This document shows, piece after piece, positions 29,626-38,677 of a DNA stretch of 64,000 nt (positions within the stretch are counted from its first letter, which is position 1; every line of letters begins with the position of its first letter). This stretch comes from Streptomyces sp. NBC_00271. Lineage in GTDB: Bacteria > Actinomycetota > Actinomycetes > Streptomycetales > Streptomycetaceae. Under the pieces are notes generated by a model. It had not been told where the DNA came from and ran no database searches. It was given only the letters and a program-made list of their open reading frames with translations. The position numbers and the translations under genes were made by a program. Where the stretch lies: NCBI RefSeq assembly GCF_036178845.1, contig NZ_CP108070.1, forward strand, positions 8,246,001 through 8,310,000. Reading direction: 5' to 3'.

Positions 29626-30750
29626 ATGGCAGGTACGGACCGCGAGAAGGCGCTCGACGCCGCGCTCGCACAGATTGAACGGCAATTCGGCAAGGGCGCG
29701 GTGATGCGCCTGGGCGAGCGGCCGAACGAGCCCATCGAGGTCATCCCCACCGGATCGACCGCGCTCGACGTGGCCCTCGGTGTCGGCGGCCTGCCGCGCG
29801 GCCGAGTGGTGGAGGTGTACGGCCCGGAGTCCTCCGGTAAGACGACGCTGACGCTGCACGCGGTGGCGAACGCGCAGAAGGCCGGCGGCCAGGTGGCCTT
29901 CGTGGACGCCGAGCACGCCCTCGACCCCGAGTACGCGAAGAAGCTCGGTGTCGACATCGACAACCTGATCCTGTCCCAGCCGGACAACGGCGAGCAGGCG
30001 CTGGAAATCGTGGACATGCTCGTCCGCTCCGGCGCGCTCGACCTGATCGTCATCGACTCCGTCGCCGCCCTGGTGCCGCGCGCGGAGATCGAGGGCGAGA
30101 TGGGCGACTCGCACGTGGGTCTGCAGGCCCGTCTGATGAGCCAGGCCCTGCGGAAGATCACCAGCGCGCTCAACCAGTCGAAGACCACCGCGATCTTCAT
30201 CAACCAGCTGCGCGAGAAGATCGGCGTGATGTTCGGGTCCCCGGAGACCACGACGGGTGGCCGGGCGCTGAAGTTCTACGCCTCGGTGCGACTCGACATC
30301 CGCCGCATCGAGACGCTGAAGGACGGCACCGACGCGGTCGGCAACCGCACCCGCGTCAAGGTCGTCAAGAACAAGGTCGCGCCGCCCTTCAAGCAGGCCG
30401 AGTTCGACATCCTCTACGGGCACGGCATCAGCCGCGAGGGCGGCCTGATCGACATGGGCGTGGAGCACGGCTTCGTCCGCAAGGCCGGCGCCTGGTACAC
30501 GTACGAGGGCGACCAGCTCGGCCAGGGCAAGGAGAACGCGCGCAACTTCCTGAAGGACAACCCCGACCTCGCCAACGAGATCGAGAAGAAGATCCTGGAG
30601 AAGCTGGGCGTCGGTGTGAGGCCGACGGAGCCCACCGCCGAGCCGGGCGCGGACGCGGCGGTCTCGACCGCCTCGGACGAGGCCGCGAAGACGGTGCCCG
30701 CTCCGGCGGCCAAGGCCACCAAGTCCAAGGCCGCGGCGGCCAAGAGCTAG
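29626..30750 (+). CDS. recA: RecA recombinase
   Basis: A 374-aa RecA: Walker [10 protein letters not shown] (from residue 66), Walker [12 protein letters not shown]1/L2 loops ([20 protein letters not shown] and [20 protein letters not shown]) and a Lys/Ala-rich C-terminal tail typical of Streptomyces. It catalyses homologous strand exchange and stimulates LexA self-cleavage. ATG29626 follows GGGTGG weakly; upstream in-frame codons precede the conserved N-terminus. An SOS box lies in its promoter and recX follows 3 bp downstream. Confidence 0.99.
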
Positions 30751-35531: not shown

Positions 35532-35927
35532 CTAGGCCGTCACCGGGAGACCGGCCGCCTTCCACGCCTGGAAGCCGCCGACCAGGTCGGTCGTCCGGTG
35601 CAGTCCGAGCTGGTGGAGGGAGACGGCGGCGAGGCTGGACGCGTACCCCTCGTTGCAGATCACCACGACCCGCAGATCGTGGCTCGTGGCCTCCGGGGCG
35701 TGGTGGCTGCCCTGCGGGTCGAGCCGCCACTCCAGTTCGTTGCGCTCGACGACGAGGGCGCCGGGGATCAGTCCGTCGCGCTCGCGCAGGGCGGCGTACC
35801 GGATGTCGACTAGGAGGGCTTCGCCGGCCTGCGCGGCGGAGTACGCCTCCTCGGCCTCCACCCGGTCGAGTCCCTCGCGGACCCGTTCCAGCAACGTGTC
35901 GATGCCCACCGGGCGGGGTGCGCTCAC
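35532..35927 (-). CDS. Rhodanese-like sulfurtransferase
   Basis: A 131-aa single rhodanese domain (LVDIRYAALRERDGLIPGAL; active-site Cys in VVICNEGYASS; GGFQAWKAAGLPV). It likely handles sulfane sulfur from cysteine breakdown. GTG35927 overlaps the cysteine dioxygenase stop (GTGA), so the two are co-transcribed and coupled. This pairing is frequent in Streptomyces. Confidence 0.92.
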   Translation of the reverse strand: MSAPRPVGIDTLLERVREGLDRVEAEEAYSAAQAGEALLVDIRYAALRERDGLIPGALVVERNELEWRLDPQGSHHAPEATSHDLRVVVICNEGYASSLAAVSLHQLGLHRTTDLVGGFQAWKAAGLPVTA

Positions 35928-36466
35928 TGCCAGTCCTCCGGACGCTCGACGTGCTCCAGGCGCAGCACCTGTCCCGTGCGGCTGTAGCGGCGGATCCGGG
36001 GCAGGGGCGGGTAGTACGCGTGGACGGAGATCGCGTGCTCCTCGGTGGACTCGTTGAGCACCTCGTGCACGTGGTGGCGGCCGAAGGAGCGGCCCTCGCC
36101 GGCCGGCAGCCGACGTTCGCGGTCGACGTCCTCGGAGAGTTCGAGGGTCTTCCAGCCGTCGGTGGGCAGGCGGGCGGCGAGCGAGTATTCCTTGAGCTCG
36201 CCCGCGGCGGCGACGAAGGCACCGACCGAGTCGGCGTGGTCGTGCCAGCCGGTCCCGGTGCCGGGGGGCCAGCCGATGAGCCAGGCCTCGCTGCCACCGG
36301 GGCCCTCAAGGCGCACCCAGGTGCGGCCCTCGGGGTCGAGGGGGAGGGAAGCGATCAGCTCGGCGTCGGCGGCGGTGCGGCGCACGAAGTCGAACAGGTC
36401 GGCCTGGGTGGGGGCCTGGACCGGTGCGGAGGAGGAAGGCGTGGTGGAGGGGGTGGACACAGACAC
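35924..36466 (-). CDS. Cysteine dioxygenase (type I)
   Basis: A 180-aa cupin iron enzyme converting cysteine to cysteine sulfinate. Iron ligands fit the family pattern: WHDHADSVGAF (two His) and the later His in FGRHHVHEV. A Ser/Thr/Pro-rich N-terminus of ~20 residues precedes the cupin. GTG36466 has AGGACGG 5 nt upstream; longer frames upstream run through the leader region. It is the first structural gene after the Cys leader peptide at 36549-36596, which suggests control by cysteine supply. Confidence 0.92.
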   Translation of the reverse strand: MSVSTPSTTPSSSAPVQAPTQADLFDFVRRTAADAELIASLPLDPEGRTWVRLEGPGGSEAWLIGWPPGTGTGWHDHADSVGAFVAAAGELKEYSLAARLPTDGWKTLELSEDVDRERRLPAGEGRSFGRHHVHEVLNESTEEHAISVHAYYPPLPRIRRYSRTGQVLRLEHVERPEDWQ

Positions 36467-36548
36467 GGGTACCGTCCTGGGCGTTCGCGTGGGCGCGCGC
36501 GGCAGCCGACAGGCAGAGGCGGCGCGCGGGGAGAGAAGAGCTGCGAAT

Positions 36549-36596
36549 TCAGCAGGACGGGCGACACACGCAGCCCGCATAGCGGACGAGGTCCAT
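36549..36596 (-). CDS. Cys-containing leader peptide upstream of cysteine dioxygenase
   Basis: A 15-codon ORF, MDLVRYAGCVCRPSC, starts at ATG36596 behind a strong ribosome binding site (GGAGGG, 5 nt spacing) and stops 82 nt before the dioxygenase start. Three of its last seven codons are Cys (TGC, TGT, TGC), the final one next to the stop. Actinobacteria are known to use short Cys-rich leader ORFs to attenuate expression of sulfur operons by ribosome stalling; the context (cysteine catabolic genes) fits. A GC-rich inverted repeat at about 36492-36534 could provide the alternative RNA structure. Confidence 0.8.
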   Translation of the reverse strand: MDLVRYAGCVCRPSC

Positions 36597-36642
36597 ATGG
36601 ACCCTCCGCCACAGGCGCACACAGGTGTCGGTCACGATCCGG

Positions 36643-36671
36643 AGTACACCATGGCGGTCCGGGCCGGTCAA
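36643..36671 (-). promoter_or_regulatory. Promoter of the leader-cysteine dioxygenase-rhodanese operon
   Basis: Minus strand -35 TTGACC (36671-36666), 17-bp spacer, -10 TGTACT (36648-36643). Transcription would begin near 36636, about 40 nt before the leader peptide start. Confidence 0.6.
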
Positions 36672-36678
36672 CTCACTG

Positions 36679-36701
36679 TCACTATGTGGACCATTCGGTG
36701 A
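36679..36701. promoter_or_regulatory. Palindromic operator-like site upstream of the cysteine dioxygenase promoter
   Basis: A 23-bp inverted repeat of form TCAC-N4-TGG-T-CCA-N4-GTGA (minus-strand reading) lies 8 bp upstream of the -35 box. The position suits an activator. The cognate regulator is not encoded next to it and is not identified. Confidence 0.5.
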
Positions 36702-36775
36702 CCGAGGGTGCCGCGATGGCCGTGGCTCCGCCCCTCCGGACGGGTTCGGCCGGACGGGTTCGGCGACCTGAGCCC

Positions 36776-36801
36776 GGTGGTCCGGGGCGGGCCGGACCAC
36801 C
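36776..36801 (-). terminator. Terminator of the flavin monooxygenase gene
   Basis: GGTGGTCCGG (36776-36785), loop GGCGGG, CCGGACCACC (36792-36801): a perfect 10-bp stem starting 8 nt beyond the stop codon. Confidence 0.75.
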
Positions 36802-36808
36802 AGGGTCC

Positions 36809-38677
36809 TCAGGTCGTACTCGCCGCGGTCTCCGCTTGCGCTTCCGCCGTGGCGGGGCCGCCCAGTGTCGTCTCGGCCGCCGCGTACAGGTCGGCCGGGC
36901 GCACCCCGCTCAGCGCGGTGACCAGGTGACCGTCGGGGCGCACCAGGAGCACGGTGTGTGCCGCCGCGCCGGGGTAGCTCTCGGCGACCAGCAGCTCGGC
37001 GCGGTGCGGCAGCGCGGTCACGGCGGCCGCGAGCCGGGGCATGATCCCGGCCGTCACCCAGTGCTTGCGCGCCCACACGCCCGTACCCGGAGCGATCAGT
37101 ACGACGAGCAGCACCCCGCGACCGAGCCGCTCCCGCAGCTGTACGAACGAGCCGTCCTCCGCGGTCACGCGTACGTCGACGACCGGCGCACCGGGTGCCG
37201 TGTCCACCGGGGTCTGCGACTCGGTGTGCGCGGGCGCGAGCGGCGAGTCGGCGTACGTCCCCGGCGCACCCAGCGGGCCGCGTCCCAGGTGGCCGTCCGT
37301 GAGCAGCGCGTCGTGGCCACGGCCCGACCCGGGGACGTACGAGCGCAGGCCTCCGCCGCTGCGCAGCAATGGCAGCGCCTGGTCGGCGGCGCGCAGCCGG
37401 GCGGCGACGACGGCCCGCCGCTCCGCCTGGTAGCTGTCGAGCAGCGCCTCGTGCGGGCCGTGGTGCCAGGCGAGCGCCAGCTTCCAGGCGAGGTTGTCGG
37501 CGTCCCGCAGGCCCTCGTCCAGGCCCTGGGTGCCGAGCGCGCCGAGCAGGTGCGCGGCGTCCCCGGCGAGGAAGACCCGGCCGGCCCGCCAGCGGCGGGC
37601 GAGGCGGTGGTGGACGGTGTGGACTCCGGTGTCGAGCAGCTCGTACGGGGGTGTGGAGCCCGCGTTCCAGCCCGCGAGGGTCTCCCGGATGCGCGCCACC
37701 AGCAGGTCGGGCGTGACCAGGTCCTTGCCGGGCGGCAGCAGCCAGTCCAGCCGCCACACGTCGTCGGCGAGGGGGCGCGCGGTCACCTCCCCGCTCGCGG
37801 GGCCGGACGTCCGCCACGGAGGCATCCGGTGCAGCAACGCCTGGCCGGGCCAGGGAAGTTCCGTACGCAGCGCCGCCACGGCGTATCGTTCGACGGCTGT
37901 ACGTCCGGGGAAGCGGATGTCCTGGAGCTTGCGCACGGTCGAGCGCGGTCCGTCGCAGCCGACCAGGTAACTGCCGCGCCACCACGTGCCGTTGGGGCCG
38001 CGGGTGTGCGCCGTGACGCCCGAGGACTCCTGCTCGATCGAGTCGAGGCGGCTGCCCACGGCGACCTTGATCAGCCGCTCGTGGATGATGGCCTCGCGCA
38101 GGGCGCCGGTCAGCGCGTGCTGGGCGAGATGCAACGGGGCGGCCGCGTCGGCGCCCTCGGAGTCCTGCGCGACCGCGGTCGGGCCGAGCCCGGCGCTTTT
38201 CAGGCTCTGCGCGCTCCCCTTCGGGATGCGTGCGCTCCCCTCGATGCGCTGAGCGCCGATCCCCGAGCCGTGCGCGCCGCCTCCAGAGGCCTGCGCGCTG
38301 CCTACCGCGCCGCCCCCAAAGGCCCGGGCGCCGCTCACCGCGCCGTGCGCCGCGCCCCCGGGGCCGTGCGCATCGGCTTCGAAGTCCGGCGAGTCCGTGT
38401 CGGACGCCCGGGCAGCGAAGTCGATCTCGCGCATCACCTGCTTGCGCCGCATCGACCGCCATCCGGCCCAACGGAAACCGGCATCGGCGAGAGGCAGGCC
38501 CGTCAGGCGCTCGACGAGCGCGGCCGTGTCCTCGCGCAGCACCGCCGTCCGCGCGAGCCGTTGTTCGTCCTTGCCCGGCCCCTCGTCGAGGACCACGCAG
38601 GGGACCTCCTGGCGGGCCAGCGCAAGGGCCAGCGTGAGGCCCACGGGCCCCGCGCCGACGATGATCACCGGGTCCAC
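36809..38677 (-). CDS. FAD-dependent aromatic monooxygenase (PheA/TfdB-like)
   Basis: A 622-aa class A flavoprotein hydroxylase: FAD-binding GxGxxG at residues 8-13 (IIVGAGPVGLTLALAL), DG motif GCDGPRSTV, GD motif FLAGDAAHLLGALGTQGLD, and a C-terminal thioredoxin-like domain (about 480-600). Relatives hydroxylate phenols, polyketides or antibiotics such as rifampicin; the substrate is unknown. A Gly/Ala/Ser-rich, collagen-like insertion (about residues 100-165) with an underlying DNA repeat interrupts the FAD domain. GTG38677 has a G-rich ribosome binding site; an upstream TTG would add 30 residues. Monocistronic. Confidence 0.85.
   Translation of the reverse strand: MDPVIIVGAGPVGLTLALALARQEVPCVVLDEGPGKDEQRLARTAVLREDTAALVERLTGLPLADAGFRWAGWRSMRRKQVMREIDFAARASDTDSPDFEADAHGPGGAAHGAVSGARAFGGGAVGSAQASGGGAHGSGIGAQRIEGSARIPKGSAQSLKSAGLGPTAVAQDSEGADAAAPLHLAQHALTGALREAIIHERLIKVAVGSRLDSIEQESSGVTAHTRGPNGTWWRGSYLVGCDGPRSTVRKLQDIRFPGRTAVERYAVAALRTELPWPGQALLHRMPPWRTSGPASGEVTARPLADDVWRLDWLLPPGKDLVTPDLLVARIRETLAGWNAGSTPPYELLDTGVHTVHHRLARRWRAGRVFLAGDAAHLLGALGTQGLDEGLRDADNLAWKLALAWHHGPHEALLDSYQAERRAVVAARLRAADQALPLLRSGGGLRSYVPGSGRGHDALLTDGHLGRGPLGAPGTYADSPLAPAHTESQTPVDTAPGAPVVDVRVTAEDGSFVQLRERLGRGVLLVVLIAPGTGVWARKHWVTAGIMPRLAAAVTALPHRAELLVAESYPGAAAHTVLLVRPDGHLVTALSGVRPADLYAAAETTLGGPATAEAQAETAASTT

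Follow-up and report, generated by a model that had tools for sequence, protein, structure and literature searches.

The window, here the whole analysed stretch of 64,000 nucleotides from Streptomyces sp. NBC_00271, carries on its minus strand, in this order, a palindrome, the hexamers TTGACC and TGTACT, a short ORF ending in a Cys codon, a CDO_I gene and a rhodanese gene (Table 1). The stop codon of the short ORF, hereafter the leader, lies 82 nt before the dioxygenase GTG (36466) on the same strand.

Table 1. Features of the leader and dioxygenase locus, in window coordinates; codon and motif counts are over the compared loci.
Feature	Position	Strand	Observation
23-bp palindrome TCAC-N4-TGG-T-CCA-N4-GTGA	36679..36701		Exact in sequence; possible regulator site upstream of the -35
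-35 hexamer TTGACC	36666..36671	-	TTGA[CA][CAG] at the expected place in 140/141 loci
-10-like hexamer TGTACT	36643..36648	-	17-nt spacer; conserved; not a consensus -10
Leader ORF, 28 codons, V/M-TDTCVRLWRRVHMDLVRYAGCVCRPSC-stop	36549..36635	-	NF042934 match; window and 141/142 loci
GGAGGG	36602..36607	-	Arg-Arg-Val codons and predicted hairpin stem; possible internal SD; in 133/141
Internal ATG (start in the original prediction)	36594..36596	-	ATG 106, CTG 28, CTC 4, GTG 2, TTG 1 of 141
Cys1 codon TGC	36570..36572	-	TGC 133, TGT 5, other 3 of 141
Cys2 codon TGT, proposed sensor	36564..36566	-	TGT in 141/141, plus L017
CCGTCCTG, anti-SD arm in the Pro-Ser-Cys codons	36553..36560	-	Pairs with 36472-36479 in MFE and centroid; helix cells paired 92.6%
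TTCGC, inner stem arm after the leader stop	36543..36547	-	Pairs with GCGAA 36484-36488
GCGAA, inner stem arm before the SD	36484..36488	-	Pairs with TTCGC
CAGGACGG, dioxygenase SD sequestered by the leader	36472..36479	-	Predicted pairing
Cysteine-dioxygenase-family gene (CDO_I), 180 aa	35924..36466	-	PF05995, E 1.7e-49
Rhodanese-domain gene	35532..35927	-	PF00581, E 1.4e-13; GTGA overlap with the dioxygenase stop

The two genes encode the products that the original prediction had named, a cysteine dioxygenase (168.1 bits against a PF05995 gathering score of 23) and a rhodanese (PF00581). Their GTGA/ATGA overlap is retained in 79 of 80 related loci, and a strict rhodanese motif stands downstream of the dioxygenase in 56 of the 80. 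By fold and sequence, the nearest solved structures are those of ergothioneine dioxygenase. The Thermocatellispora tengchongensis enzyme (PDB 8QFL-8QFR) is only about one third identical to the Streptomyces one, and the likeness does not fix the substrate.

A RecA motif is found at 29820 of the window, and the synteny argument is built on the SCO numbers around recA in S. coelicolor. From this synteny and from the label 'putative cysteine dioxygenase' that SCO5772 bears in PMC3087709, we infer that the window dioxygenase is the orthologue of SCO5772.

For comparison, genome contigs were scanned for dioxygenase loci and the best 80 of 507 were kept, all but one of them named Streptomyces. The leader is present in all 80 and in the window, in 21 of 22 further loci of the same genus (L122-L143) and in all 40 orthologues taken from family genomes of greater divergence, the family having a dioxygenase match in 275 of 297 genomes. 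This makes 141 of 142 related loci. The sole locus lacking the leader (L143/L174) has a truncated dioxygenase, without its N-terminal half in the fetched DNA.

The leader regions number 142 with the window, 137 of them distinct since five are exact duplicates of another, and codon counts use 141 because L017 misses the upstream part of its leader. Within 400 nt, chance alone yields an ORF that ends in Cys and has no more than 45 codons in 2.9% of windows (86 of 2954). Among the titles and abstract openings of a literature search, none dealt with a leader peptide upstream of a cysteine dioxygenase in Streptomyces, though this is not proof that no such report exists.

The leader had been predicted as a 15-codon ORF, MDLVRYAGCVCRPSC with a stop (36596-36549, minus strand). 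That sequence and its distance to the dioxygenase stand but its start is not supported, as the conserved frame runs 13 codons upstream of the predicted ATG to GTG/ATG at 36635. Exactly 12 codons ahead of His, 89 of the 141 loci have GTG and 44 have ATG. With in-frame indels allowed, a GTG or ATG start is found in 141/141, and 6-7 nt after the -10-like hexamer in 135/141, the start being picked partly by that hexamer; the window GTG is 7 nt past it. Because the start sits just after the -10 box, the 28-codon ORF is probably leaderless.

GGAGGG, earlier read as a strong ribosome site, is present as claimed, and we reread its role as that of Arg-Arg-Val codons within a predicted hairpin around the internal ATG. 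One leader, that of L017, retains only the portion from the internal ATG onward and would need internal initiation. Internal initiation may thus occur in some lineages.

The 28-residue leader matches the NCBIfam family NF042934, 'putative leader peptide', with 37.1 bits against a cut-off of 27 (residues 6-24 on profile positions 1-19) and, like the family, is a short ORF upstream of and codirectional with a gene. Against NF042933 (Ms5788A) it scores 17.9 bits, below the cut-off of 45. Departures from the common codon are synonymous/nonsynonymous in 26/0 cases at His, 40/0 at Leu, 17/0 at Arg and 66/2 at Tyr. Over the whole core they are 180/117, and most of the nonsynonymous ones are Met/Leu or Val/Leu swaps. 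From these codon patterns, the leader looks translated and its peptide looks constrained at the amino-acid level.

The hexamers had been predicted as a promoter. Their letters and conservation hold, but a consensus scan of 36400-36860 finds no sigma-70-type promoter, so we speak of a promoter on the ground that the -35 and the -10-like hexamer are conserved (promoter counts omit L017 and L132, with 140 of 142 used). The same scan finds no intrinsic terminator (0 terminator-like sites), and the locus is thus without the terminator after the leader that marks a classical transcription attenuator of the trp type.

The palindrome is exactly where the original prediction had placed it, but its role as a core part of a switch is not supported. 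A half-site like GTCCACAT.GTGA occurs in 67/80 close, 8/20 intermediate and 0/40 diverged genomes. The dyad score (arms of 10) is at least 9 in 24/80, 5/20 and 3/40 loci, respectively, and the window's own gapped palindrome scores just 6. By this distribution, it is outside the conserved core and may be a lineage-specific regulator site. As a regulon-wide operator it was rejected, with one exact place in the 12.3-Mb genome and 26 sites within two mismatches versus 16 for the reversed-pattern control.

The Cys codons lie near the 3' end of the leader, as in attenuators of the mycobacterial kind, and the second (Cys2) is TGT throughout. The baseline is far from this: among the 123 Cys codons of 28 long window ORFs, 22 are TGT. 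The last residue, to which importance had been given, is Cys in only 111/141, so by its conservation the third Cys is dispensable. The tail codons before it are conserved even at silent sites, CCG in 113/141 and TCC in 126/141.

The TGT preference extends to the family, whose leaders score above the cut-off in 45 of 60 genomes across the class (Actinomycetia). We read 77 leaders (12 of this genome, 65 of others), related leaders not being independent. All but one (L106) have the core Cys, and its codon is TGT in 72 of these 76 by script; the remaining four are dioxygenase leaders for which Cys1 was picked and whose Cys2 is TGT. Hence it is TGT in every NF042934-type leader read that has it (L101-L115 in this genome; L215-L283 across the class), while the other Cys codons of the same leaders are 66 TGC and 21 TGT in a first count. 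As the flanking bases are not fixed, the constraint looks codon-specific. We know of no earlier report of an invariant UGU core codon in this leader family.

In the predicted RNA from 36635 to just beyond the dioxygenase start, both the MFE and the centroid fold contain CCGUCCUG:CAGGACGG and UUCGC:GCGAA, so that the Pro-Ser-Cys codons of the leader cover the dioxygenase SD. The fold has a z of -2.17, and 5 of 200 shuffles are as stable. A search of Rfam gave two chance-level matches, both below gathering.

The pairing recurs in 130 of 142 loci, those with an RPSC-type tail, where the leader-SD duplex averages -22.5 kcal/mol against -12.5 to -13.0 for shuffled sequences. Permuting the partners gives a mean of -21.5 (sd 0.15), and none of 2000 permutations is as low (119 distinct pairs, kinship uncorrected). 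The inner helix combines TTCGC/CTCGC with GCGAA in 106 genomes and TGATC with GATC in 16, and seven others do not fit. Classed as crossed, L192 holds both motifs and pairs normally.

Changes that look compensatory occur in L137, with AGGTCCTG in the leader and CAGGACCT before its SD, and in L196/L211, with CCTTCCTG and CAGGAACGG. Covariation by fixed columns is weak (score 0.042 versus 0.031 shuffled, 18 of 500 as high) since the SD itself hardly varies, and three pairs are changed on both sides versus 2.0 in shuffles (155 of 500). Sliding the structure by -1 to -3 columns raises the covariation to 0.054 to 0.082 but leaves only 36 to 49% of cells paired, against 86.3%. RNAalifold predicts 0 pairs on a gappy alignment of 54 sequences of at most 125 nt each, made up of the window plus 53 stem-class loci out of the remaining 129 (8/80 close, 18/21 of L122-L142 and 27/28 diverged).

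When a ribosome with Cys2 in its A site is masked, the mean SD accessibility goes from 0.047 to 0.281 and rises in 129 of 130 genomes. Masks at Cys1, the stop codon and codon 10 give means of 0.113, 0.313 and 0.046. In the window alone it is 0.02 when free and 0.22 to 0.24 with Cys1, Cys2 or the stop masked, Cys1 and Cys2 being equal at 0.22. In L137 the modelled opening is small, from 0.29 to 0.37. Therefore, outside the exceptional class described next, the RBS-sequestering structure is opened in silico by a ribosome at the Cys codons, to an absolute accessibility that is modest even then (mean 0.28; window 0.22).

Twelve of the 142 genomes show neither a leader-SD stem nor an accessibility change, and all belong to one genus (g120), which we take to be Kitasatospora. 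The mechanism must therefore differ there. Their leaders (L175, L178-L182, L184, L185, L188-L191) are kept to C-V-C and then run into TAAR or a like tail; often, a GC-rich inverted repeat surrounds the stop. Their SD region differs too (e.g. CAGGGTGGT) and could form its own hairpin. Elsewhere, L206 has a self-complementary insertion of about 20 nt right after the leader stop, in the internal loop of the proposed stem.

The original prediction had looked to conservation across Streptomyces. The leader and Cys2 are conserved, as is the RNA pairing in the 130 loci, while the palindrome's half-site is missing from the diverged genomes. The claim of a translated-looking Cys-codon leader placed in cis before the operon is borne out, with conserved Cys codons, peptide and RNA pairing.

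The family NF042934 has 31 matches in this genome at E up to 10, eight of them above the cut-off, and we read the 15 best, the dioxygenase leader included. Among its 14 siblings, seven precede clear sulfur genes, for CysM, a nitrite/sulfite-reductase-family protein, SfnG dimethylsulfone monooxygenase, SsuC, an SsuA-like binding protein, a mercaptopyruvate-sulfurtransferase-like protein and a MetY-like sulfhydrylase. Three stand before plausible ones (two NtaA/DmoA-type monooxygenases and a flavin reductase) and four before no obvious sulfur gene (ROK regulator, sugar-type binding protein, 2-oxoglutarate dioxygenase and GST-like).

Over these 15 leaders, the pairing of each tail with its own SD beats the permuted pairing at P 0.009, or 0.035 without the dioxygenase. 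Three leaders, those of the dioxygenase, SfnG and the GST-like gene, come first in both directions, and no others do. The SfnG leader (L105) is a second clear SD-hiding one, its Cys codons CUCCUGUUGC being perfectly complementary to the SD region GCAACAGGAG. The GST-like one (L106; C1:9529967-9530011, minus strand) has no Cys and ends in SSAY and a stop, still pairs with its SD, and may sense another signal or be decaying.

Before distant dioxygenases, Cys-rich leaders are found in 5/29 cases on the sense versus 2/29 on the antisense strand, with chance at 2.9%, which is suggestive only. HVDL-type leaders precede two more distant dioxygenases. Distant homologues in L144, L147, L161 and L166 stand behind unrelated Cys-rich short ORFs, with ends such as RCCRCC, RCCCSSC and RCCC, and one of the four is a second paralogue in a genome of the genus Streptomyces. 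The antisense strand upstream of the distant dioxygenase of L158 carries a typical leader, RRHVDLCRLASSVCRRGC, which probably serves a divergent gene.

We hold with moderate confidence that the locus works as a leader-peptide attenuator with cysteine codons, the genome having about 15 related leaders of which this is one, and that it is ON when cysteinyl-tRNA is scarce. Conservation, pairing, accessibility change and family membership enter this reading as computed results, and leaderless initiation, stalling, direction and physiological role as what we infer. Transcription would start at or beside the GTG at 36635, and ribosomes would translate the 28-codon leaderless ORF. With plentiful cysteinyl-tRNA, the ribosome would complete the leader and depart, upon which the Pro-Ser-Cys codons would pair with the dioxygenase RBS, aided by the helix inside, and turn translation off. 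With scarce cysteinyl-tRNA, it would stall at the invariant UGU of Cys2 and cover CCGUCCU, opening the RBS.

By such a stall the operon would be coexpressed with sulfur acquisition at low cysteine, and the enzyme and the rhodanese might recycle sulfur, taking it to sulfite from a thiol that is related to cysteine or resembles ergothioneine. We place the ON state at low cysteine because the modelled stall frees the RBS, siblings stand before sulfur-acquisition genes and SCO5772 is coinduced with such genes. Still, it is physiologically odd that shortage of cysteine should induce an enzyme degrading it.

We take SCO3035 to be the second CDO of S. coelicolor. Published expression data touch both genes. 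After H2O2, RNA-seq of S. coelicolor finds SCO5772 8.0-fold up; SCO6094-6102, SCO4164 and SCO2910 lead the same list (PMC4991794, Table 1). The set counts 28 genes up at M of at least 1.5, ssu and cys genes and SCO3035 (6.5-fold) among them, and no gene is up-regulated after H2O2 in the HbpS-SenS-SenR mutant (PMC4991794). Because the response is at the RNA level and is lost in this mutant, it need not act via the leader.

In strain KK, the CdoI genes are 21.65- and 6.36-fold up at 96 h, with sulfate-assimilation genes variably up and cysM unchanged (PMC12763843). In feather medium, cdo1 and cdo2 are 50.2- and 8.3-fold up (PMC7181669), and nitrogen starvation induces Sven_5427/SCO5772, an effect that depends on GlnR (PMC3087709). 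The feather and nitrogen-starvation responses could be catabolic induction and, being at the RNA level, may act at the promoter. A GlnR-box-like pattern is absent from the window promoter and present in 12 of 141 promoters, versus about 1% of shuffled ones.

The original prediction had the opposite direction, in which abundant cysteine is the condition for opening the operon. On that logic, with the palindrome involved, expression would be favoured by translation running smoothly to the stop, or cysteine would be sensed by the nascent chain in the way TnaC does for tryptophan. The annotation of the product as cysteine-degrading and the rise of cdo1 and cdo2 in feather medium (PMC7181669) agree with this; a conserved HVDLxR-type peptide would suit a nascent-chain sensor, and the modelled ribosome at the stop codon opens the SD too (0.313). 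However, sulfur-acquisition genes follow at least 7 of the 14 sibling leaders, SCO5772 rises with cysteine-biosynthesis genes after H2O2 (PMC4991794) and the CdoI genes of strain KK rise alongside the variable up-regulation of sulfate assimilation (PMC12763843). Moreover, the SD is closed in free RNA and the palindrome is unconserved. We thus find it improbable and the predicted logic probably reversed, by the stall model, the sibling genes and the coinduction of SCO5772, with the feather-medium induction keeping it alive.

The leader might instead act mainly on transcription, with Rho terminating on a C-rich, G-poor stretch once the ribosome has gone from the stop and being prevented by a stalled ribosome or by translation of the dioxygenase. 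Over the 60 nt past the leader stop, C minus G averages 0.21 per base, a value reached by 4.9% of tiled windows (142 loci and 15 leaders of this genome), and the published induction is at the RNA level with no intrinsic terminator found. Such termination would also cover the leaders and the g120 genomes that have no SD stem. On the other hand, a stalled ribosome shields just about 12 nt past the A-site codon, 5' leaders of Streptomyces may often be C-rich, and the conserved silent CCG/TCC sites and the SD complementarity are left unexplained, so we consider it unlikely. It is highly improbable that the ORF yields a small protein with a function of its own, or that it is an upstream ORF which is conserved but unregulated: the amino-acid-level constraint would fit, but the position before the gene, the SD complementarity, the family link to sulfur genes and the position-specific UGU all point to cis regulation.

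Within the low-cysteine attenuator reading, the always-UGU core raises a further idea. A sulfur-containing modification can be carried by tRNA at position 37. Together with the conserved HVDLxR peptide, the core could make a nascent-chain-assisted pause at a wobble-read Cys codon, which would report sulfur via the charging or the position-37 sulfur modification of tRNA-Cys, and the dioxygenase-rhodanese operon would serve sulfur salvage, not cysteine disposal. We regard this as a speculation, with a doubtful but real chance of being right.

If the low-cysteine reading is true, a supposed cysteine-degrading enzyme sits inside a low-cysteine regulon, which would suggest that the thiol dioxygenases of Streptomyces serve to recycle sulfur and not to get rid of cysteine. 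Through the seemingly invariant UGU, one could ask in a simple, testable way how sulfur status is read by ribosomes at such leaders throughout a bacterial class, and the anti-SD stem brings the mechanism within reach of a few reporter constructs.

As to known systems, the leader belongs to an established family, and what surprises is its target enzyme and its always-UGU sensor codon. The common motif of NF042934 (cis_reg_atten) is of the R-x-HVDLxRxxSxxC type, in a short ORF upstream of a gene. The present leader forms its own subfamily, RRVH[ML]DL[VL]RYAGCVC, with two core Cys, an RPSC or TAAR tail and a thiol dioxygenase as target.

Canestrari et al. in 2020 reportedly described cysteine-responsive, leaderless polycysteine short ORFs in mycobacteria, at which a stalled ribosome was predicted to block an RNA structure hiding the RBS of the next gene. 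PMC13236596 and PMC9094748 cite this work. Predicted cys leaders of Actinobacteria also have Cys codons before cys genes without conserved terminator hairpins (BMC Microbiol 2005, PMC1262725). The passages of that paper considered here concern Mycobacterium, Propionibacterium acnes and Bifidobacterium longum and do not mention Streptomyces cys leaders or dioxygenases.

Our leader resembles the mycobacterial short ORFs in being a leaderless-looking ORF that ends in Cys codons and in having a predicted RBS-hiding RNA structure. It differs from them in ending with C-V-C-(R-P-S-C) and not a Cys run, in missing the Ms5788A cut-off and in preceding a gene annotated as cysteine-degrading.
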